Source: Mesoaciditoga lauensis cd-1655R = DSM 25116 | GTDB taxonomy: Bacteria > Thermotogota > Thermotogae > Mesoaciditogales > Mesoaciditogaceae | Length of the DNA stretch: 61,716 nt | Direction of reading: 5' to 3' | NCBI RefSeq assembly: GCF_000745455.1 | Contig: NZ_JQJI01000011.1 | Span: 1 to 61,716, forward strand | In this document: piece by piece, positions 2,396 to 38,997 of the stretch | Numbering within the stretch: position 1 is the stretch's first letter | How the letters are laid out: the number at the start of each line of letters is the position of its first letter | Notes under the pieces: generated by a model | Database searches by the model: none | Told to the model about the DNA's origin: nothing | What the model saw: only the letters and a program-made list of their open reading frames with translations | Translations under genes and position numbers: made by a program

Positions 2396-2725
2396 ACCCT
2401 CCCCGCCAACTTTGTTGGCCCTCCCCTCCCAGCTTTGTGAGAGGACTTACAAGGAAAAGTCGTGTAGCGCAATCTTTTCAGTCTGCCCTCGCTTGCGGGG
2501 GAAGTGGCGGCGAAGCCGACGAAGGGGGCGCAGACCCTCACTACCAACTTGGTTGGCTTTCCCTTCCCAGTTGTGTGAGGGGATTTACAAAAAAGAGTCA
2601 TGTAGTACAACCTTTTCAGTCTGCCCTCGCTTGCGGGGGAAGTGGCGGTGAAGCCGGCGTAGGGGGCGCGGTTGCCCTCACTACCAACTCGGTTGGCCCT
2701 CCCCTCCCAGCTTTGTGAGGAGATC
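2396..2725. repeat. Tandem GC-rich repeats (family 2) inside the phage module
   Basis: Two units of about 150 bp and a third partial unit lie head to tail. Each unit has CCAAC..GTTGG, a CCCTCGCTTGCGGGGG hairpin and a GGCGGCGAAGCCGRCG block. The first runs from about 2396, the second from about 2540, and the partial one is at about 2680-2725. Related single units occur at 14755, 26868 and 60595. No protein is convincing here; the open frames seen on both strands come from the repeat composition. The location between initiator and recT would suit an origin, but the wider distribution argues for a dispersed repeat. Confidence 0.75.
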
Positions 2726-2735
2726 ATCGTTGAAG

Positions 2736-2764
2736 AAAAGCCGCGTGCCGAATTGACACGCGGC
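2736..2764 (-). terminator. Terminator after recT
   Basis: The inverted repeat GCCGCGTG/CACGCGGC with a 9-base loop lies just downstream of the recT stop. On the minus strand it is followed by TTTTCTT. Confidence 0.75.
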
Positions 2765-2772
2765 AGTTCGCG

Positions 2773-3825
2773 TTATTCCAAACTCTTCAACGCCTCCTTT
2801 GCCTGTTCTTCGCTCAGAAGAGCGAGAGATTTCACGTTGTATTTTTCTTTTATTTCGTTCATTTTCCGCTTTTTCTCGTCTTTGCTCATGCTTTCAAGCG
2901 CTCTGTATATCTTTTTCACGGTGGAAATCGAATTGGATGTTACTTCTGCTTTTTCAACTTTTTCAACTTCAACGTTTTTTGTACCTTCTTCTTCTTCTTT
3001 GTCGTTGGTTTCATTTTCTTCCGGAACGCTTTCGTAATTGGCTTGAATAACTTCCCAATCCGTTTCATCCGGAATGTCTTCCACCATGTCCTGAGATATC
3101 CCACGCTTCGTCGTTTCGTCGGCGGCTATTGCCTTTTGTATCTCAACGGATATCGGAAGGTATTTGCAAAGCTGTTTTATCGCGGTTTTCCTCGCCATCG
3201 CGTCGTAGTCCGTAACCCACGGGCCGAAGTTTGGAGATTTGGAACGCTTTCTTATCTTTTCAACGTCTCCCTTAGACATAACGAGGAACGAATAGCCTCC
3301 GTCTTTGAAATGCGCGACGGCGTACACGGCGGTTATTTCTCCCCTGTCTTGTGAGATGTTTGGAATGTGTCTGAGCTTTTCGGCTAAGCCGTATTCGAAT
3401 TCGAATTCATCGTTTTCATGAACGGTGTGCGCGGAAATGGAAGTTATCTCACCCGATCTGCGCACAAGGTCGAGCATGCCTTTGTAGCCTATTTGAAGCT
3501 GGACTTCCATGGATTTCGTTTTTGAATTGTAATAGGGAATCAAATAGACGTGGCCAAGCGCGCCCGGCTCCAAGCCGAGTTGCGCCGCTGTCATTATGGC
3601 GCCTAAAAGAGAAGTGTTCGAACAGTTCAAAAGCTTTGGATTCTTTCTCATTTCCGTTAAAGCAATTCTCGCTATTCTGTCGGCGTCTAAATGTTTTGGA
3701 AGCGCGCGTTGAATTTCCGGCGCCATGCGTTTGAGCAAATCCTGAACGTTTTTATACGGGGACGGCTTTATTCCCGTTTTGACTTTCGTTGACAATTTAT
3801 CTTTAACTTCTTTTGTGGTTGACAT
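2773..3825 (-). CDS. recT: RecT family single-strand annealing protein
   Basis: A 350-residue phage recombinase of the RecT/Redbeta superfamily. Residues about 20-245 show the RecT core: LLKRMAPEIQRALPKHLDADRI, then LLNCSNTSLLGAIMTAAQLGLEPG, VQLQIGYKGMLDLVRRSG and DYDAMARKTAIKQLCKYLP. The last 100 residues are acidic and lysine-rich with coiled-coil character. The start ATG 3825 sits behind AGGAGGCGTGAG. RecT anneals complementary single strands produced by a partner 5'-3' exonuclease, and the end of such an exonuclease (YqaJ type) lies immediately upstream. RecT looks intact although its partner is truncated. Confidence 0.93.
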   Translation of the reverse strand: MSTTKEVKDKLSTKVKTGIKPSPYKNVQDLLKRMAPEIQRALPKHLDADRIARIALTEMRKNPKLLNCSNTSLLGAIMTAAQLGLEPGALGHVYLIPYYNSKTKSMEVQLQIGYKGMLDLVRRSGEITSISAHTVHENDEFEFEYGLAEKLRHIPNISQDRGEITAVYAVAHFKDGGYSFLVMSKGDVEKIRKRSKSPNFGPWVTDYDAMARKTAIKQLCKYLPISVEIQKAIAADETTKRGISQDMVEDIPDETDWEVIQANYESVPEENETNDKEEEEGTKNVEVEKVEKAEVTSNSISTVKKIYRALESMSKDEKKRKMNEIKEKYNVKSLALLSEEQAKEALKSLE

Positions 3826-4459: not shown

Positions 4460-7400
4460 ATGAACAGATACCGTTTCTTAGCATTAACGCTAAGTGTACT
4501 GCTTCTTGTTATCATTCTTTCAGGTTGTTTCATGTTCAAACCGGCAGCACCTTCCAATCTCACGGTTACCACCTTAAGCGCTTCATCCATAGAACTTTCA
4601 TGGAGTGGAAATGGAGATAGCTTTATTATTTATAGAAGTACAAACAATTCAAATGATTTCACCGAGTTGGCAACTGTGAAAAGCAAATCATACATAGATA
4701 AATCACTTACACCGAACACCATTTATTATTATGAAGTAAGAGCGAAAAATGGCTTTGGAACATCTGAACCATCCAACCTAGCCTACGCGACGACCTTCCT
4801 CAATCCCCCCAACGCTCCTTTGCTGACGCTTACCAGCGTATCAACAGACACGGTAACGCTCGGATGGATCAAAAGCTCAACAGATGTTACCGGTTTTGAG
4901 ATCTACAGGTCTTCATCGCTGAGTTCCTCGTTCACAAGGATCGCGACCATTACAAATACGGCAACTTATTATATCGACACGGATCTCGTGCCTTCCACGG
5001 CCTATTATTACAAGATGGACGCTTACAACTCTGGAGGAGTTTCGCCTTTCAGCACAATTGTCAAAGCCAAAACACAGCAGACGGTGCCATCCGCGCCAAT
5101 TGGTCTCAAAGCCTTCACACTTACATCCGGAAGTATTAAGATTCAATGGACTCCGACATCTAACAATCAGCTTGGCTTTCACATATACAGATCCAAAACG
5201 TATTCGGGAACCTACACAAATGTCGCAGATGCCAATCCGTCACAGGATTCTTACGTAAACACCAATCTGAATTACAATTCGACTTATTATTACAAAGTAA
5301 CCGCATTCAACCTTGCTGGTGAAAGTCCATCATCCGGTGTGGCCTCCGCAACGACACTTCAACAGGTGCCGTTCAATCCATACGATCTTCGTGTTACTTC
5401 CATATCCACCGACTCTATGACTCTGCAATGGAAGCCAGGATCGAATAACGAAGTGGGGTACAAAGTCTACAGATCCTCAACCTCAAAGGGATCTTTCACC
5501 CAGATTGCGACTCTGGATTACAACCATGTTTCGTACACGGATAGGGGCATAAACCCGGAGAACAATTATTACTACCGAGTGATCGCGTACAATTACGTTG
5601 GGAACTCGTATCCATCTAACACGGCATCGTTGAACCTCCAGCCGTCTACTCTGAAAATAACGGAAGCATCGACACACACGATGACGCTCGACTGGGCGGC
5701 CAACACAGTTAAAGGGATCTGGTTCCAGGTGTACAGATCCAACGGCGACGATACTAATTTCACACAGATAGCGACCTTCTCTGGGAACATTTTGACGATG
5801 ACGGATCAAAATCTTTCTCCCAAGACAGTCTACTACTATGAGATAAGGACGTACGCCTTTGGCCACGAATCGGATATGTCAAACGAGGTGTACTCGGAGA
5901 CAGTGCCGGTGCAGGTAGCTACCGTTACGACGGTCCTCGGGAACAAAACACTGACGAAGAATCTTGTAACGAAGGTGTCTCCAAACACGAACACGCTAAC
6001 CTTCAAGAAATCGGCGATGACATCCTCCATCTCGAAAGGCTCAATACTGGTTTCTGGAATTTCGCCGAACACGCCGAATGGGATGCTCAGGAGAGTGGTG
6101 TCCGTGAGTCGAAACGGGAGCTTTGTCACGGTTAACACGGAGCCCACATACCTCGCGAGCGTGGTCAGGAACGGTTCTCTGGATGCAACCGTATCGATAA
6201 AACCGAACCAGGTCAAATCAGTGAGGGCACTTAGTGAGGGAGTCCACGTCAAGGACGCTTTTGACATTTCAATAGACGTTCCGATTTACGAAAAAAATGG
6301 CGCATCCGTAAAACTTCAAGGTGATATCTCAATATCCCCACAATTTCATTTAAGCGTAAGCATAGGGTTTTTCAAACTGATAGAATTCAGGTTCATAGCC
6401 GCTCTCAACGTGGACTCATCGATAGCGTTGACATCCGAAGCCGCACTTGAATTGAATAAAATGGTTCCGCTTGTCGAGTACACCCTTGGGGCCATAGATT
6501 TCCAGATAGGTCCTGTTCCGGTCATCATAACGCCAAAAATCGAGTTGTTTGTCGGAGTGGATGGCAAGGTTTCTTCCGAGTTGACATTTGGTGTCGGCGA
6601 CAGCCTTAGCATGGGAGGCGGCTTTGATGACTACAAAGGAAGCTGGCATGCCATAAAATGGTTCGACAACAGCTTTTCAACCACAACCCCGACCGCGACG
6701 GATCTTGTTAAACTCAGTGCCCAGGCGTACGTGCAGGCTCAGCTGTCCTTCGACTTTTACGGTATGGCGGGCCCATACGTATACCTACAGGCTTACGCAG
6801 AAGCGGACGTTACACCGTTGAGTGATTATTGGCTTAACGTGTACGCGGGATTGGATGCCGGAGTGGGCGTTGAATTCGAAATCGGCGCACTCTTTCACCT
6901 TTCTTACCAGAAAACCCTGTACGATCACCAAATCACGATGTTTAGAAAACCGGCAGATCCGAAACCGCCGGAGAATCTGAGTTTAAAGGCTGGAAATTCC
7001 CCAGGTGTTTACAAGCTCTCATGGGAAGAAAGCTCAGGGAATGTGTCCGGTTTTAGAATATTGCACTCGACCGATGGGAAGAACTACACCGAAGTTGGGA
7101 ATACGGGTGCCGGCAAATTCGGGGGAGTTTCAAATGTCAGATCTTACATTGTCTACCCTTCGGGGGGACTTAACTATTACAAAGTTTGCTCTTTCACGGC
7201 CGGTTTTGGCCCCAATTCCGATTCGACGTCTAAACCGTCGGATGCCGTGACGACATTTTACGTTAAGCCGCCCGATCCCTTGAAAATAACAACGTATTCA
7301 ACGAACTCAATAACCATAGGGTGGCAGAACAACTCAAAGGTAGCTCAGGGCCTTGAGATTTTCAGGTCAATTCCCGGACATGCTTACACGATGATCGCTA

Positions 7401-9859
7401 AAGTTGGTCCTTCAGTCAGCTCCTACACCGATAAAGGTCTAGAATCAGGAGAGACTTACAGTTACCTCGTCAGAGCTTATGGATCGGGTGTGAATTCCAT
7501 TTTCTCGAATTCCGTAAGCCAGCTTCTTCCACCAAAAAGGCCATCAAATCTCAAGGTGACAGGGTACGCGACACACACGATAAGCATATCCTGGACGGAC
7601 ACGCCATCGAAGAACGAAACTGGTATGAAAATATACAGATCAACCGATGGGATGAACTACACAGTTGTGGCCACTGAATCCAAGAATGTGACATCATTCA
7701 AAGATACAGGCCTTAACGGTAACTACACGTACACCTACAAGGTTAGAGCGTACAATCCGGCCGGGGTATCGGACTTCACAAACACGGTAACACAAGGGCT
7801 TCCTCCAAACGAGCCTTCCAACCTTCAAATAACCGCCCTTTCTTCGACAACAGCAACACTCGTATGGACGGACAACTCGAACAACGAAAATGGATTCAAA
7901 ATCTATCGCTCGCTGTCGCTTGAGGGGCCATTCACACAAGTAGCAACTGCAACGATCAACGCGACCTCTTACACGGAGACAGGGCTAGATAATTCCGGGA
8001 ATATTTACTACTACAAAATCGCCGCTTACGACCAACGCGGGAATTCCGACTATTCCAACATCTTCTCGACCAATCAAGGATCGCCGCTCACACCTTCTAA
8101 CTTCGAAATCCCGTCCTACAGTGACAATTCCATAACCCTAAGATGGACCAACAACTCCGCCAACCAAACATCCATTGGCATCTACAAATCCACGAACGGA
8201 ACGGATTTCGCGACTCTGACAGTTCTACACATCGCGAACGCGGTTTCGTACACAGACACGGGACTTTCACAATATACGGAATATTATTACAAAGTAAGGG
8301 AATGGAATCAATATGGAAGCTCAGGTTTCACCGATACAACCTCGGCGACTACCATGATCTATGTGGGACTTGACCATATGCAATATCAAGAAAATCCTCC
8401 GGCTCAGGATGTTAACGTACCAGTCAAGCCATGTTTTGGATGGGAAGAATTTTTTGTCATACACGACAACAACACGATAATTCCTCAGGAGGGAGCTAAA
8501 TTTGATCTCTATGTTGGAACGAATTCGAACCCCACAACGCTTTTCGCTTCAAACCTGACATCGTCCTCGTCCGGAATGGTTAATATAGGCGGTCCTCAGG
8601 GGAGTTACCATTACAATATTCAACGCCCGTTGAACTATGGAACTGTATATTATTGGAAAGTTGTGGCGAAAGCCGGTAAGGGGATCGCGACGAGTGCGGT
8701 TTATTCTTTCACAACACAGGGGCTTATGTGGAGGATCAAAATAGGCAGCAACCTTAAAGGTAGCCCGGCAATAGGGTCTGACGGTACCGTGTACATTGGA
8801 TCAGATACAGGATATCTCTACGCTATAAATCCGGACGGCAGCGTAGATTGGAAATGTGATCTCGGTAGCCCAATATACACGAGTCCTGCGATAGCTTCGG
8901 ATGGCACCGTGTACGTGGGAACCAACAGTGGGCTCCTTTACGCTATAAATTCGGACGGCACTATAAAATGGCAATACCAGGTCCAAGCAGAGTATGATAA
9001 TACAACAACAAATATGGCAATAACTGCTGGACCGACAATAGATTCTGAAGGTGCCGCCGTGTACGTGGCGAGCGCGAACGGAGACGTTTTCTCGATAAAC
9101 ACCGCCAATGGCCACGAAAATTGGAAATATTCAACCGGTTCGTCGATGGGAGGAAATCCGATATACGGAAGCCCTTCGATAGGGGCAAACAACAAACTGT
9201 ACGTCGCTGCAAATAATGGCAAACTGTACGCTTTAAGCACTGCGGACGGTAGTCTTAGCTGGTCGTATACCTATTCGACATCCCCGGGACAGGGAAGTTT
9301 TTCGTGCCCGGCGGTTGGAAACAACGGAGACGTTTATTTTGGATCCTTCAACGATAATTTTTATGTCATGAATTCACAAACTGGAACACCTTTAAAAACA
9401 CTGGCGGTGAACAGCTATGTCACTTCCAGTCCGGCGATAGAATCGGATTATCCCAACCTTGTCTTTTATTTCACAGCATCTGACGGCTCTTTGTACAAAT
9501 ATGACATTGCCAATGGTAACACCCAGTACCAACAGATAAAGATAGGTGATCACTATAGGGTGAACCTTTCAAGTCCGACGATAGGAGCCGACGGCATGGT
9601 ATACGTTGGAGGTATAAACGATGAAGCCAGAAAATCCTACCTTTACGCTATAAATCCGGACGGCACCATAAAATGGAAATCTCAAGTTGGAGTTAACGCC
9701 CCGGCAATAACAAGTCCAACGCTTGGCAACGGAGTTTTGTATTTCACAGCTAACGATGGTTATATCTATGCCTTGAAGACATCTTCCTCAGGAGTTGACA
9801 CAAATGCTCCTTGGCCGATGTACATGCACGATCCTGAGCATACGTCAAGCAATCCTTGA
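4460..9859 (+). CDS. Giant lipoprotein: FN3 repeats plus C-terminal PQQ-type beta-propeller
   Basis: A 1799-residue exported lipoprotein. Residues 1-23 form a lipoprotein signal with lipobox LSGC (Cys23), and AAAGGGGGA precedes ATG 4460. Five fibronectin type III domains follow at about 30-487, each with the pattern 'S.SI.L.W....GF.IYRS' and 'YYYKV.AYN..G.S'. Residues about 490-828 form a beta-rich region I do not recognise. Five more FN3 domains span about 835-1297, with an FN3-like domain at 1301-1419. The C-terminus (about 1421-1790) is a PQQ-like propeller with repeated 'SDGTVYVGT..G.LYAIN.DGT.KW'. The end APWPMYMHDPEHT matches the end of the propeller at 15120. The build suggests a surface adhesin or polymer-binding protein; no enzyme motif is visible. 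Confidence 0.9.
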   Translation: MNRYRFLALTLSVLLLVIILSGCFMFKPAAPSNLTVTTLSASSIELSWSGNGDSFIIYRSTNNSNDFTELATVKSKSYIDKSLTPNTIYYYEVRAKNGFGTSEPSNLAYATTFLNPPNAPLLTLTSVSTDTVTLGWIKSSTDVTGFEIYRSSSLSSSFTRIATITNTATYYIDTDLVPSTAYYYKMDAYNSGGVSPFSTIVKAKTQQTVPSAPIGLKAFTLTSGSIKIQWTPTSNNQLGFHIYRSKTYSGTYTNVADANPSQDSYVNTNLNYNSTYYYKVTAFNLAGESPSSGVASATTLQQVPFNPYDLRVTSISTDSMTLQWKPGSNNEVGYKVYRSSTSKGSFTQIATLDYNHVSYTDRGINPENNYYYRVIAYNYVGNSYPSNTASLNLQPSTLKITEASTHTMTLDWAANTVKGIWFQVYRSNGDDTNFTQIATFSGNILTMTDQNLSPKTVYYYEIRTYAFGHESDMSNEVYSETVPVQVATVTTVLGNKTLTKNLVTKVSPNTNTLTFKKSAMTSSISKGSILVSGISPNTPNGMLRRVVSVSRNGSFVTVNTEPTYLASVVRNGSLDATVSIKPNQVKSVRALSEGVHVKDAFDISIDVPIYEKNGASVKLQGDISISPQFHLSVSIGFFKLIEFRFIAALNVDSSIALTSEAALELNKMVPLVEYTLGAIDFQIGPVPVIITPKIELFVGVDGKVSSELTFGVGDSLSMGGGFDDYKGSWHAIKWFDNSFSTTTPTATDLVKLSAQAYVQAQLSFDFYGMAGPYVYLQAYAEADVTPLSDYWLNVYAGLDAGVGVEFEIGALFHLSYQKTLYDHQITMFRKPADPKPPENLSLKAGNSPGVYKLSWEESSGNVSGFRILHSTDGKNYTEVGNTGAGKFGGVSNVRSYIVYPSGGLNYYKVCSFTAGFGPNSDSTSKPSDAVTTFYVKPPDPLKITTYSTNSITIGWQNNSKVAQGLEIFRSIPGHAYTMIAKVGPSVSSYTDKGLESGETYSYLVRAYGSGVNSIFSNSVSQLLPPKRPSNLKVTGYATHTISISWTDTPSKNETGMKIYRSTDGMNYTVVATESKNVTSFKDTGLNGNYTYTYKVRAYNPAGVSDFTNTVTQGLPPNEPSNLQITALSSTTATLVWTDNSNNENGFKIYRSLSLEGPFTQVATATINATSYTETGLDNSGNIYYYKIAAYDQRGNSDYSNIFSTNQGSPLTPSNFEIPSYSDNSITLRWTNNSANQTSIGIYKSTNGTDFATLTVLHIANAVSYTDTGLSQYTEYYYKVREWNQYGSSGFTDTTSATTMIYVGLDHMQYQENPPAQDVNVPVKPCFGWEEFFVIHDNNTIIPQEGAKFDLYVGTNSNPTTLFASNLTSSSSGMVNIGGPQGSYHYNIQRPLNYGTVYYWKVVAKAGKGIATSAVYSFTTQGLMWRIKIGSNLKGSPAIGSDGTVYIGSDTGYLYAINPDGSVDWKCDLGSPIYTSPAIASDGTVYVGTNSGLLYAINSDGTIKWQYQVQAEYDNTTTNMAITAGPTIDSEGAAVYVASANGDVFSINTANGHENWKYSTGSSMGGNPIYGSPSIGANNKLYVAANNGKLYALSTADGSLSWSYTYSTSPGQGSFSCPAVGNNGDVYFGSFNDNFYVMNSQTGTPLKTLAVNSYVTSSPAIESDYPNLVFYFTASDGSLYKYDIANGNTQYQQIKIGDHYRVNLSSPTIGADGMVYVGGINDEARKSYLYAINPDGTIKWKSQVGVNAPAITSPTLGNGVLYFTANDGYIYALKTSSSGVDTNAPWPMYMHDPEHTSSNP

Positions 9860-10688: not shown

Positions 10689-11174
10689 ATGAAGAAGAAT
10701 CGTCTATGGGTGTTACTGTCTGTGGTAAGTAGTATGATATTCTTGACATTGGTTTTGTCAGGCTGCTTTACCACGAATCCGCCAACTAATCATGGAAATT
10801 ACATTTTATATGGAAACTTCGGCATTACAACAGATAAGTATAAAGAAGATGCAAATTGGGATCAAATAATTCAAAATGTTTTTGGCTCTAGTTATCGGGT
10901 CGCCGATTGGAATGATTTTGTTCAATACTACAATAAATACGGCGAAAGCGGTTTGATACAATTACTTGATGGACTACAGCTTTCTGATTATCAAGATGCG
11001 GCTTGGTTAAAATACAACGGTCAGAGCAATGATACTGATGACAGATATTACTACCTTGAAAGGCATAACCATAATATTCCTTCGTATTTCGCAGCGTTTG
11101 CCACTATTGATAATCATCTTGTAGATCTGGGAAGTTGGTGGGGTGAAAGAAAAATTTTGGCCATTAAGAAATAA
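10689..11174 (+). CDS. Small lipoprotein of unknown function
   Basis: A 161-residue protein with a clear lipoprotein signal (hydrophobic residues 7-22, lipobox LSGC with Cys26) and an excellent AGGAGGT site before ATG 10689. The mature part is rich in aromatic and polar residues (e.g. WDQIIQNVFGSSYRVADWNDF, EDDxYYYLE-like stretch DDRYYYLERHNHNIP). I see no known domain or catalytic motif. It stands alone between a long leader upstream and the terminator at 11322, and its promoter type is shared with the two propeller lipoproteins. It may be part of the same surface programme, but its function is unknown. Confidence 0.8.
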   Translation: MKKNRLWVLLSVVSSMIFLTLVLSGCFTTNPPTNHGNYILYGNFGITTDKYKEDANWDQIIQNVFGSSYRVADWNDFVQYYNKYGESGLIQLLDGLQLSDYQDAAWLKYNGQSNDTDDRYYYLERHNHNIPSYFAAFATIDNHLVDLGSWWGERKILAIKK

Positions 11175-15119: not shown

Positions 15120-16475
15120 ATGAGAAAATCTTACTTGGGGGTAATTATTCTCGCCATTGTTTTGACAATAATCCTTTCAGGGTGCCTTCCGCAAACTTAC
15201 AGCGTGTCTGGATATGTAAAAGATTCATCCGGGAATCCAATTTTTGGTGTTACAATTTCGTTTAGCGACGGCGCACCAAATGTGGTAACGAATTCTGATG
15301 GTTATTGGTCAAGAAGCAAACTAAGTGGCAATGTTACGATAACGCCCTCTAAAAACGGATGGACATTTGATCCACCCAGCATAACCGTGAGTAAAAGCCG
15401 TAATGATGTCAATTTTATCGGATACACAGTGGGAAGTCTCAAATGGAAATACAAAACAGGCAGTTATGTTACTTCTAGCCCTGCAGTGGACGAAGATGGA
15501 ACGATATATGTTGGCTCCTTTGATGATTACCTCTACGCGCTTACTCCAGCTGGCAAATTCAAATGGAAATTTCACACAGGCTCTGATGTCGTTTCCAGCC
15601 CGGCAATAGGAGAAGATGGAACGATATACTTTGGTTCCAAGGATGGTTACCTTTATGCTCTTGATCCGAATGGCAATCTTAAATGGAAATATCAAGCGGA
15701 AAATGAAATTAACTCTTCACCAGCACTTGGAAAGGATGGAGTTATATACGTTGGCTCCAAAGATGGTTATCTTTACGCGATCAAGCCAGATGGCACTCTT
15801 AAATGGAGATATGGAACAGGAGATGATATTCTTTCCAGTCCTGCAATAAAAGAAGATGGAATGATATATGTTGGTTCCAAGGATGGTTATCTTTACGCGA
15901 TCAAGCCAGATGGCACTCTTAAATGGAAATATTTAGCAGGAGATCATATCAGTTCTAGTCCAGCTTTGGACGACAATGGAAATGTATACTTTGGAGTGGA
16001 TAATGCCACAGGGCATTGTTATCTCTATGCACTTGATTCAACAACCGGTGCATTCAAGTGGAAATATCCTACCTGGGACTCCATGCGCTCTAGTCCAGCG
16101 ATAGGAAAAGATGGAACTATATACGTTGCCTCATATGATGATTACCTTTACGCGATCAAGTCAGACGGTACCCTTAAATGGAAATACAGGCTGATAGGAT
16201 ACACCCCTTCAAGCCCTGCTATTGGCCAAGATGGAATATTATATATAGGGGCGTTATATTATTTTTATGCGATCGATTCGGCAAACGGATCGCTTAAATG
16301 GAAATATCCAACGGGAGGTTATATTTTTTCTAATCCGGTTATAAGCCAAAATGACTCGGTGTACGTTGGTTCAAATGATGGATATGTGTACGCTTTTGCC
16401 GTTTCTTCTATTGGACTTGCGCACAGTCCATGGCCAATGTTCCATCATGATGAAAGGCACACCGGGTCAAAGTAA
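15120..16475 (+). CDS. Lipoprotein with CarboxypepD-like domain and PQQ-type beta-propeller
   Basis: A 451-residue lipoprotein. The signal ends in lipobox LSGC (Cys22), and AAGGAGGGATGTAA precedes ATG 15120. Residues about 27-98 form a carboxypeptidase-regulatory-like beta-sandwich (VSGYVKDSSGNPIFGVTISFS). Residues about 105-430 hold about nine blades, each near 36-40 residues, with 'SSPAIGEDGTIYVGS.DGYLYALDPNG.LKWKY'. The end HSPWPMFHHDERHTG matches the end of the giant lipoprotein at 4460-9859, so the two propellers are homologous. Known relatives include BamB-like and PQQ-dependent folds, but no cofactor or catalytic residues are evident; a surface-binding or structural role is likely. Confidence 0.88.
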   Translation: MRKSYLGVIILAIVLTIILSGCLPQTYSVSGYVKDSSGNPIFGVTISFSDGAPNVVTNSDGYWSRSKLSGNVTITPSKNGWTFDPPSITVSKSRNDVNFIGYTVGSLKWKYKTGSYVTSSPAVDEDGTIYVGSFDDYLYALTPAGKFKWKFHTGSDVVSSPAIGEDGTIYFGSKDGYLYALDPNGNLKWKYQAENEINSSPALGKDGVIYVGSKDGYLYAIKPDGTLKWRYGTGDDILSSPAIKEDGMIYVGSKDGYLYAIKPDGTLKWKYLAGDHISSSPALDDNGNVYFGVDNATGHCYLYALDSTTGAFKWKYPTWDSMRSSPAIGKDGTIYVASYDDYLYAIKSDGTLKWKYRLIGYTPSSPAIGQDGILYIGALYYFYAIDSANGSLKWKYPTGGYIFSNPVISQNDSVYVGSNDGYVYAFAVSSIGLAHSPWPMFHHDERHTGSK

Positions 16476-36177: not shown

Positions 36178-36966
36178 ATGTTGGACAACGAATCGTTCAT
36201 GAAATTCGCAGACGCTATAAGAAGAAAATTGAACTTCGATATGTCTGGGTACAAATTGGAGAGAATGAAGAGGAGAGTGGATTTTCTCATAAGAAAATAC
36301 GGCTTTGAGGATTACAGTGATTATTTGAAAATCCTGGACGGCGATCCTTCAAAGCAAAGAGAATTCTTCGACAGGATCACGATAAACGTCACGGAATTTT
36401 TCAGAAATCCCGACAAATGGGAAAAATTTAAACGTTACATCGCAGAAGAAATGAAAGTAACGCCACGTGGAACCATTTGGAGTGCGGGGTGTGCAAGTGG
36501 AGAAGAGCCGTACTCTGTAGCCATAATGTTGGAGGAAATGAACGCTTCTCCAATTAATTATAAAGTGTTAGCCTCTGATCTGGATCCAAATATCCTTGAA
36601 GTTGCGAAGAAGGGAATTTACGATCAGAGATCCTTGGTTAACATAAAAGAATCGTTGAGAGATAAATACTTCAAAAAACTGGATGATGGTCGTTACCAAG
36701 TTGTGGATAAAATTAAAGAGCGAGTGACTTTTCGAAGGCAAAATTTGCTTTCCGATCCATTTGAAAAGAATTTGATGGCCATATTGTGCAGAAACGTCGT
36801 CATATATTTCGAAATGGAAGCTAAAGAAAAGTTGTACAAAAAATTCGCAGATGCTTTGAAACCAGGAGGAATACTTTTCGTCGGTGGAACAGAAAGGATA
36901 TTCAACAGTCGCAAGATTAATTTGGAACCTGTAGAACCATTTTTCTACAAAAAAGCTTTGACCTGA
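36178..36966 (+). CDS. cheR: CheR-type protein-glutamate O-methyltransferase
   Basis: A 262-residue methyltransferase. Residues about 5-60 form the CheR N-terminal helical domain. The SAM-binding domain contains RITINVTEFFRNPDKW, TIWSAGCASGEEPYSVAIML, VLASDLDPNILEVAKKGIY and LLSDPF..NLMAILCRNVVIYF. It adds methyl groups from S-adenosylmethionine to glutamates of chemoreceptors. No cheB or receptor gene is nearby; it shares the operon with lspA and rluD. The length and motifs argue for an active enzyme. Confidence 0.95.
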   Translation: MLDNESFMKFADAIRRKLNFDMSGYKLERMKRRVDFLIRKYGFEDYSDYLKILDGDPSKQREFFDRITINVTEFFRNPDKWEKFKRYIAEEMKVTPRGTIWSAGCASGEEPYSVAIMLEEMNASPINYKVLASDLDPNILEVAKKGIYDQRSLVNIKESLRDKYFKKLDDGRYQVVDKIKERVTFRRQNLLSDPFEKNLMAILCRNVVIYFEMEAKEKLYKKFADALKPGGILFVGGTERIFNSRKINLEPVEPFFYKKALT

Positions 36967-36967
36967 A

Positions 36968-37423
36968 ATGTGGATAGAATGGTTTGTAATGGCAACGGTA
37001 ATCGCTTCTGATCAGATAACCAAATATCTGATAGAAACTCACATGCACCTTTGGCAATCTGTGGTTGTAATAAAAAACGTTTTGAATCTGACGTATGCCA
37101 AAAACAAGGGAATGGGTTTTAGCGTGTTTCAAAGTAATCCAAAGCTCGTGGAGTATTTGGTAATTCCGACAATCATCGTTCTAGTGGCGTTTTCAATCTT
37201 ATGGAAAGATAAAAAAGATTGGTTTTTTGAGCTTTCCATGGGACTGATAATCGGTGGCGCGTTTTCCAACGCTTTAAACAGGTTAATATCCGGAACGGTG
37301 ACTGACTTCATTCAGTTGCCATATTGGCCTATCTTCAATGTGGCAGATTCGTGTGTCGTTGCAGGTGCAATAGGGATAGGCATTTATTTTTTGAAGAGAG
37401 AGAAAAAAGTTGGAAAAGATTGA
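36968..37423 (+). CDS. lspA: Lipoprotein signal peptidase II with altered motif
   Basis: A 151-residue four-helix membrane aspartic peptidase that removes signal peptides from lipoproteins. ATG 36968 is two bases after the cheR stop. Asp15 (SDQITKYL) is conserved, as are D113 (TVTDFI) and D127 (FNVADS). These match the catalytic pair Asp124/Asp143 of the P. aeruginosa enzyme. However, the normally invariant Asp of the NxxDR motif (Asp102 in B. subtilis) is Asn104 here (GGAFSNALNR, codon AAC), and the usual NTGAAF motif reads NKGMGF. The genome makes several lipoproteins, so activity is needed from this or another copy. Confidence 0.9.
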   Translation: MWIEWFVMATVIASDQITKYLIETHMHLWQSVVVIKNVLNLTYAKNKGMGFSVFQSNPKLVEYLVIPTIIVLVAFSILWKDKKDWFFELSMGLIIGGAFSNALNRLISGTVTDFIQLPYWPIFNVADSCVVAGAIGIGIYFLKREKKVGKD

Positions 37424-38333
37424 ACTTAAAGTTACAACTCGTGAAGCTGGAAGAAGAATAGACGTAGCTTTAATGGAATTTGCACCTCCACACACTTCCA
37501 GAACTGTCATTCAAAACTTAATAAAGATGGGGAAAGTCACGGTAAATTCAAATCCAACAAAACCGTCTTACAAGTTGAAAGACGGGGATTTTGTGGAAGC
37601 CGTCTTTCCGCCACCTGAAATGCCGATCATTCCAGCCGAAGAAATTCCGTTGAGCGTAATATACGAAGATGAGCATATTATAGTGATAAATAAGCAAGCT
37701 GGCCTTGTCACTCATCCAACCGTTAAGAAAACCACTGGAACGCTTGTCAATGCTTTGTTATGGAGATTTAAAAAAGACAACGGGCAGCCTTTTATCGTTC
37801 ATAGGCTGGACAAAGATACATCCGGTGTTATTTTAGTCGCAAAGGATCCAGAAACCCAAAGGCTTCTTTCAGCCCAGTTCAAGGCAAGAAAGACAAGAAA
37901 AGTGTACTTGGCGCTTGTTGAAGGTACACCCTTGGAAAAAAAAGGTGAAATAAACGCACCCATTGCCAGAAATCCGCAAGTGAGAACGAGGATGGACATA
38001 TTAAGTTGGGGAAGAAACGCGGTAAGCAGATATGAAACTTTGAAAACGTTCAAAATGTGGAGTCTTTTAAAGATAAGAATATTAACTGGCAGGACACATC
38101 AGATAAGGGTTCACATGAAACATATAGGCCATCCCGTTGTGGGAGATCAGATATATGGGATTAAGCCGGCATATCCTCTGGAATGGGTGAAAAGGCAGTT
38201 GCTCCATGCAGCTATTTTAGAAATTAATCACCCATTCACAAATGAGCCGATGAGATTTGTGGCCCCTTTGGCCGACGATTTTAAAAAAGCGTTAAAAGAG
38301 ATAGCCACTGAAGGAGAAAAAGATGTTCGGTAG
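37410..38333 (+). CDS. rluD: RluD-like 23S rRNA pseudouridine synthase
   Basis: A 307-residue enzyme. The N-terminal S4 domain (GRRIDVALMEFAPPHTSRTVIQNLI) is followed by the RluA-type catalytic domain. The signature FIVHRLDKDTSGVILVAKD carries the catalytic Asp in HRLDKDTSG. Later motifs are LTGRTHQIRVHMKHIGHPVVGD and LLHAAILEI. TTG 37410 overlaps the end of lspA by 14 bases. It converts uridines to pseudouridine in 23S rRNA helix 69, judging by the subfamily; RluB/C-type specificity cannot be excluded by eye. Confidence 0.93.
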   Translation: MEKIELKVTTREAGRRIDVALMEFAPPHTSRTVIQNLIKMGKVTVNSNPTKPSYKLKDGDFVEAVFPPPEMPIIPAEEIPLSVIYEDEHIIVINKQAGLVTHPTVKKTTGTLVNALLWRFKKDNGQPFIVHRLDKDTSGVILVAKDPETQRLLSAQFKARKTRKVYLALVEGTPLEKKGEINAPIARNPQVRTRMDILSWGRNAVSRYETLKTFKMWSLLKIRILTGRTHQIRVHMKHIGHPVVGDQIYGIKPAYPLEWVKRQLLHAAILEINHPFTNEPMRFVAPLADDFKKALKEIATEGEKDVR

Positions 38334-38997
38334 AATGTTTTTCATCCAAGCATTAGGTGCCACACCAGGCGTGTTAATAGCCATAACAATTCATGAGTTT
38401 TTCCATGGACTAAGCGCTTATTGGTGCGGTGATGACACGGCAAAAAAAGCAGGTAGGTTATCTTTAAATCCGATAAAACACCTAGATCCCATAGGAACGC
38501 TAACGCTCATCTTTTTTCATTTTGGTTGGGCACGACCCGTGCCAGTGAATTTCTGGAAGTTCAAGCATCTGAAAAGGGATACGGTACTTGTTTCAATAGC
38601 CGGCCCTCTTTCAAACCTTGTAGCTGGATTTGTAACAGAGGCCATATTCATAAAAACGGGATTTTATCAATACGCAAGGTACTCTCCCCTTCTTTTCAAC
38701 ATCTTTCCAAACATGAGTGCCAGCCCTTACATTTCTTATTTGGCAGACGTCACGGCTTGGTTTATCTTGATCAACTACGTTTTGTTCATTTTTAATTTGA
38801 TCCCCGTTCCTCCATTGGATGGTGCAAAAGTTTTAATGGCCTTTTTACCAAGTAAATACATGAATTGGATGTTAAAATATGAGATGTACGGTACGATAAT
38901 ATTGTTGGTTCTGATTTTTTTTGGCATAGTTAATGTTATACTCAATCCAGCACTTGTATGGGTGTTAAATGTAACTGCACGGCTTTTTGCAATGTGA
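38323..38997 (+). CDS. Site-2 protease family (M50) membrane metallopeptidase
   Basis: A 224-residue polytopic protein. The zinc motif HEFFH (in ITIHEFFHGLSAYWCG) lies in the first membrane helix, and the third ligand is in NLIPVPPLDGAKVL. Between them are GRLSLNPIKHLDPIGTL and SIAGPLSNLVAG, typical of the short YwhC/Rv-like S2P group without PDZ domains. Such enzymes cleave membrane-embedded substrates; the substrate here is unknown. ATG 38323 overlaps rluD by 11 bases. Confidence 0.94.
   Translation: MFGRMFFIQALGATPGVLIAITIHEFFHGLSAYWCGDDTAKKAGRLSLNPIKHLDPIGTLTLIFFHFGWARPVPVNFWKFKHLKRDTVLVSIAGPLSNLVAGFVTEAIFIKTGFYQYARYSPLLFNIFPNMSASPYISYLADVTAWFILINYVLFIFNLIPVPPLDGAKVLMAFLPSKYMNWMLKYEMYGTIILLVLIFFGIVNVILNPALVWVLNVTARLFAM

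Follow-up and report, generated by a model that had tools for sequence, protein, structure and literature searches.

A clade-wide lipoprotein signal peptidase variant without the NxxDR aspartate in the family of Mesoaciditoga lauensis, and its association with a residue at the preceding helical turn

The lipoprotein signal peptidase (LspA, SPase II) encoded in the window, the 61,716-nucleotide stretch of Mesoaciditoga lauensis DNA analysed here, has Asn in place of the aspartate of the NxxDR motif and represents a real, clade-wide variant of this known enzyme. The missing residue is Asp109 of S. aureus LspA, and positions are given below in S. aureus numbering unless they are assigned to the window protein. 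Position 109 is Ser in eight, Asn in two and Asp in none of the ten genomes, from four genera, of what we infer to be the window's family (Mesoaciditogaceae), whereas all 93 rows from other Thermotogota have Asp there, indicating that the missing aspartate is a clade trait and not a single-genome oddity. The window LspA is probably the working signal peptidase of its genome and would use the usual two-aspartate mechanism, the NxxDR aspartate having become replaceable with Ser100 of the window protein as the likely enabler. What is new is the link of Asp109 loss to residue 105, the counterpart of this Ser100; an LspA variant without the NxxDR aspartate was not found in the open-access literature searched.

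The lspA gene lies at 36968..37423 on the + strand as an open reading frame for 151 amino acids. The predicted protein matches PF01252 (Peptidase_A8) of Pfam with an E-value of 7.7e-34 and 117.4 bits (cut-off 25) and the NCBIfam equivalog TIGR00077 with 105.4 bits (cut-off 73.95), and its AlphaFold model, which is of modest confidence (mean pLDDT 69.4), matches the LspA structures 6ryp (TMq 0.83, E 8e-9) and 5dir. The PF01252 match is the only one in the genome (65 contigs, completeness 99.96%), and the search for a second lspA that the sequence-only reading had advised, made with the PF01252 profile on the 65 contigs, found none. Residues 101-105 of the window protein read NALNR, where other LspA have NxxDR, and the codon AAC for Asn104, first pointed out from the letters alone, is indeed present at 37277..37279 (+); Asn104 aligns with the NxxDR Asp in the enzymes of known structure from S. 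aureus and P. aeruginosa. Overlooked in that first reading were the codon TCC at 37265..37267 (+), which places Ser100 at the position of the conserved Gly105, and the occurrence of the same combination in other lineages.

Fourteen residues of S. aureus LspA are described as highly conserved, namely Asp21, Lys25, Asn52, Gly54, Gly102, Asn106, Asp109, Arg110, Val116, Asp118, Phe132, Asn133, Ala135 and Asp136 (PMC6952399). Thirteen of them are intact in the window LspA, the exception being Asp109, and the same 13 are intact in all ten family rows. Arg105 of the window protein (37280..37282, +), equivalent to Arg110, a residue in contact with bound inhibitors and required for activity, is kept. 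So is the catalytic pair, as had been stated from the sequence: Asp113 (37304..37306, +) corresponds to Asp118 and Asp127 (37346..37348, +) to Asp136, and both positions are Asp in 314 of 314 LspA rows. The full set of 14 residues is not treated as a strict criterion of LspA membership, since Gly54 differs in ten and Arg110 in five of 158 LspA read outside the Thermotogota; Ala135 and Phe132 differ in six each. A second conserved motif had been called altered, with NKGMGF (37103..37120, +) for NTGAAF. The letters are correct, but the only two conserved residues of the motif, Asn46 and Gly48 of the window protein, are kept, and the remaining positions vary among LspA: the Thr position is taken by Lys in 10 of the 93 rows from other Thermotogota and in 15 of the 158 other bacteria, and the last Ala position by Gly in all ten family members and in three of the 93 rows. 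NKGMGF is thus rejected as an altered motif and regarded as ordinary variation.

LspA was found in 102 of 103 Thermotogota genomes, all of which were read (G003 gave no match). The 93 rows outside the family come from 92 genomes, G068 being represented twice, and rows L039-L042, which duplicate family genomes, were dropped from the counts. The equal-scoring lspA matches of G068 lie at 2633-3031 and 2057129-2057527 of contig C1, near both of its ends, and probably reflect a residual assembly overlap. The Ser codons at position 109 in the family are all AGY (AGC or AGT), and the Asn codon AAC is found in the window and in G016. The absence of Asp is therefore family-wide, although the replacement is mostly Ser and not Asn; the suggestion that Asn might be common in LspA of this phylum holds in spirit for the family and fails for the phylum at large. 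Residue 105 separates the same groups, being Ser in all ten family members versus Gly in 92 and Ala in one of the 93 other rows. Positions 50, 52 and 107 of the window protein, among others, likewise set the family apart from the other Thermotogota, so residue 105 is not the sole candidate partner within the family.

An extra Asn (GxxxNN) is present in helix 3 between Gly102 and Arg110 in seven of the ten family members (L031, L032, L034-L038) and in 11 of the 93 other Thermotogota rows (L004, L011-L018, L021, L107); it is found in none of the 158 other bacteria, 30 rows of the group f22 described below or 21 actinobacterial rows. In a low-confidence model of an insertion-bearing relative (L041, mean pLDDT 65.2), helix 88-112 is unbroken in DSSP. 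This one-residue insertion was rejected as a general compensation for the loss of Asp, since 11 Asp-bearing Thermotogota have it and three family members do not.

Beyond the Thermotogota, loss of Asp109 is also seen in another phylum-level group, f22. LspA was found in 373 of 390 genomes searched; 269 of these lie outside the Thermotogota and f22, and reading covered 158 of the 269. The 158 combine the 30 best-scoring, 76 of 80 of another set and 52 from the listed top, and lean to high-scoring LspA; G136, G151, G342 and G344 were left out as fragments or for internal stops, and the longest row was used for four loci with more than one aligned row. Position 109 is Asp in 156 and Glu in two of the 158, and position 105 is Gly in 151 and Ser in seven, all seven with Asp109. 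Asp109 is also present in 21 of 21 actinobacterial rows. All 30 f22 genomes have LspA with Ser105, and position 109 of their main copies is Ser (AGY) in 18, Asn (AAY) in 11 and Asp in one. A pattern for Asn or Ser at position 109 occurred in six of the 390 genomes, namely the window, G012, G016, the f22 genomes G113 and G261 of one family, and G039, in which the match is not at its lspA; the fixed spacing of this pattern fits 128 of the 158 outside LspA and three of the ten family members, so its negatives are partial.

Several individual sequences deserve mention. L152 (G394), the sole f22 main copy with Asp109 (GAC), lies inside the Asn group in the tree, and its aspartate is possibly a return to Asp. 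L285 (G390) and L286 (G393) are second, divergent f22 copies with Leu for Arg110 and, as aligned, a changed Asn52/Gly54 region. L250 (G171) and L284 (G155) have Glu for Asp109, both with Gly105, and L284 also lacks the following Arg.

The joint states of residues 105 and 109 were counted in 314 rows, duplicates dropped, which are not independent events. Ser105 occurs with Asn or Ser at 109 in 40 rows (one of them the paralogue L285) and with Asp in nine, and Gly or Ala at 105 occurs with Asp or Glu in 265 and with Asn or Ser in none. The 265 comprise 264 rows with Gly105 (262 Asp, two Glu) and one with Ala105 and Asp (L107), so Asn or Ser at 109 is seen in none of the 264 Gly105 rows. If a residue other than Gly at position 105 permits the loss, groups with Ser105 should show more Asn/Ser109, and this prediction was tested in the phyla of outside genomes. 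In the phylum of G104, whose LspA (L258) has Ser105 and Asp109, the Asn/Ser109 pattern with position 105 left open was found in four of 67 genomes sampled within a larger group. Two of the four matches are LspA, L340 with Ser105 and Asn109, as predicted, and the divergent L339 with Ala105 and Ser109; the remaining two have no LspA match. The pattern was found in none of seven genomes in the phylum of G215. A result of none in 200 genomes sampled from a larger set in the phylum of G143 is uninformative, the pattern having demanded, besides a Ser-like codon at 105, Gly102, where L280 and L281, the two LspA read for that phylum, have Ala102.

With L339 and L340 added to the 40 rows, residue 105 is Ser in 41 and Ala in one of 42 Asn/Ser109 sequences. 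The strict rule that Asn/Ser109 occurs only with Ser105 is ruled out by L339, and the weaker rule that it does not occur with Gly105 stands on the 264 rows. Ser105 is not enough for loss of the aspartate, since all seven outside genomes with Ser105 retain it. Residues 100 and 104 of the window protein are i and i+4 in a predicted helix spanning residues 85-108, and their side chains should be neighbours, judging from helix geometry. From the alignments, residue 105 is the likely partner that makes Asp109 replaceable. A fuller proposal, that the loss is recurrent but conditional and occurs only after Gly105 has changed to Ser or Ala on the same helix face, as a permissive switch, is advanced tentatively, with its chances a little short of even.

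A plausible mechanism can be drawn from these observations. The catalytic Asp113 and Asp127 of the window protein would activate water, and Arg105 and Asn124 would help to hold the lipobox. The third conserved aspartate, at the end of helix 3, would do no chemistry, and its polar, hydrogen-bonding role beside Arg105 may now be filled by Asn in the window protein or by Ser in most of the family. The change from Gly to Ser at residue 100 of the window protein, at position i-4, may have added a hydroxyl or altered the packing of the helix, making the carboxylate replaceable. The order of change was probably from Asp (GAY) to Asn (AAY) to Ser (AGY), each one base apart. Since both positions of the catalytic dyad are invariant as Asp in the aligned rows but position 109 also admits Asn, Ser or Glu, the data fit a supporting role of Asp109 beside Arg110 rather than a role in the chemistry. 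The natural variants thereby speak against the NxxDR aspartate (B. subtilis Asp102) being catalytic, as crystal structures already do.

There is the possibility that Asp109 is simply tolerant of replacement in some lineages and that Ser105 is a clade marker with no causal link to it, a reading that is somewhat doubtful but has to be taken seriously. It draws support from the small number of independent events, from tree tests without power, from the enzyme that combines Asn/Ser109 with Ala105, and from the seven outside genomes that keep Asp beside Ser105. It is opposed by the 264 Gly105 rows, none of which lacks an acid at 109, and by all three groups with the loss, which carry a residue other than Gly at position 105 in the losing sequences. 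The tree comprised 99 rows with the trait columns masked: the ten family members, 12 hand-picked rows of the 30 from f22, a random 32 of the 93 from other Thermotogota, and 45 of the 158 outside rows (the seven with Ser105 and 38 random ones among the longer); the 21 actinobacterial rows were excluded. The Ser105 state changes seven times on this tree and the Asn/Ser109 state three times, and an independent-pairs comparison left one pair on well-supported branches and has no power.

From taxonomy, two independent origins of the loss are likely, though not proven. A single origin of the variant LspA, followed by gene transfer between phyla, is unlikely. The family and f22 form separate supported clades (100/98 and 100/99), apart in the best tree, in which the bootstrap was not fully settled; a tree constrained to join them was not rejected (AU p 0.334), which leaves room for the transfer, as does the mean identity of the window LspA, 34.2% to f22 against 31.9% to other Thermotogota. 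Outside the family, the window LspA matches a Thermotogota protein best (39.0%), ahead of its best f22 match (37.0%), and position 101 is Gly in all ten family rows and Ser in all 30 f22 rows. The genomic surroundings also argue against transfer. A gene for an RluD-type pseudouridine synthase (37410..38333, +; PF00849 and S4), which shares 14 bases with the 3' end of lspA in the window, adjoins lspA in ten of ten family loci and, where flanks are available in other Thermotogota, in 27 of 28 loci, and the window rluD and cheR have no match in the 30 f22 loci. The upstream neighbour of lspA in the window encodes a CheR-type methyltransferase (36178..36966, +; PF01739); by phmmer, cheR adjoins lspA in eight of ten family loci and in 10 of the 28 other Thermotogota loci with flanks. 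An M50-family membrane protease (38323..38997, +; PF02163) follows rluD, and rluD and the protease stand downstream of lspA in all ten family loci.

An adaptation to acid, in which a neutral Asn or Ser stands in for a protonated Asp at low external pH, is improbable. The window's lineage presumably includes Athalassotoga saccharophila. This species is thermoacidophilic (PMC7163026), which is the point in favour of such an adaptation.

That the window LspA is an active enzyme, as we infer on the strength of its retained active-site residues, low dN/dS in relatives, gene order, Lgt, lipobox proteins and model match, is very probable. The lspA frame is free of stops in all ten family genomes, each of which has one copy of Lgt. 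The gene is under purifying selection in the family relatives: dN/dS is 0.051, 0.086, 0.099 and 0.094 in the four of seven family pairs that are unsaturated, all of them without the window gene, and the three pairs that the window gene, L022 and L033 form with one another show synonymous saturation (pS 0.78 and pN 0.15 for L001-L022). The claim that three lipoproteins are encoded in the window was confirmed at the level of candidates by a regular-expression scan restricted to the window. All three predicted substrates carry the lipobox LSGC and lie on the + strand: one at 4460..9859, with fibronectin type III and beta-propeller repeats, one at 10689..11174 without a Pfam family, and one at 15120..16475 with a beta-propeller. 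The product of 4460-9859 is a protein of 1799 amino acids with six fibronectin type III stretches in addition to its beta-propeller repeats in Pfam. The accompanying claim that the genome needs a working LspA is likely to be right.

It is very improbable that LspA is inactive or decaying in a lineage that tolerates unprocessed lipoproteins. The missing aspartate is reportedly needed in B. subtilis. Loss of Lsp is described as affecting growth of that species only under stress (PMC2228790), which also favours decay. The ten intact frames, the dN/dS of 0.05-0.10 in four pairs, the otherwise intact active site and the retained Lgt stand against it. A sequencing error at 37277, although GAC and AAC differ by one base, is ruled out for practical purposes by AGT in the congeneric genome G012 and the absence of Asp throughout the family.

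LspA is a target for antibiotics, and its active-site pocket has been called highly conserved (PMC12067869). Natural enzymes that lack one of the conserved residues bear on the question of which of the three aspartates can be dispensed with, and they offer a case for studying how replacement of a conserved residue comes to be tolerated. If the link to residue 105 is true, the enzymes without Asp109 constitute a distinct LspA variant, possibly with an altered pH optimum or inhibitor response. The observations agree with the crystal-structure assignment of Asp118 and Asp136 as catalytic over an older proposal that is said to have included the NxxDR aspartate.

Compared with S. aureus LspA (6ryo, 6ryp) and P. 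aeruginosa LspA (5dir), the window LspA has the same family profile, fold and size, and it shares the catalytic Asp pair and 13 of the 14 conserved residues. It departs from them at position 109, where it has Asn and most of its relatives have Ser, and at position 105, where Ser replaces Gly. For B. subtilis LspA, Asp102, the NxxDR aspartate, was reportedly found necessary for activity and proposed to be catalytic. Its loss is said to be harmful in the mutants of that species, whereas the loss in the window protein is natural and is accompanied by Ser at the preceding turn. A citing paper attributes to the B. subtilis study (Tjalsma 1999) six residues important for activity. In S. aureus LspA, the catalytic residues are Asp118 and Asp136, the mutants D118N, D136N and R110A are inactive and R110K retains half of the activity, and the listed mutants do not include one of Asp109 (PMC6952399). 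LspA of H. pylori keeps ten of 12 non-catalytic strictly conserved residues and complements E. coli (PMC7240156). Like the window LspA, it is changed at residues called strictly conserved in 485 organisms; the changes named for it are at Gly108 and Ala109 of P. aeruginosa, and the NxxDR aspartate is not among them (PMC7240156).
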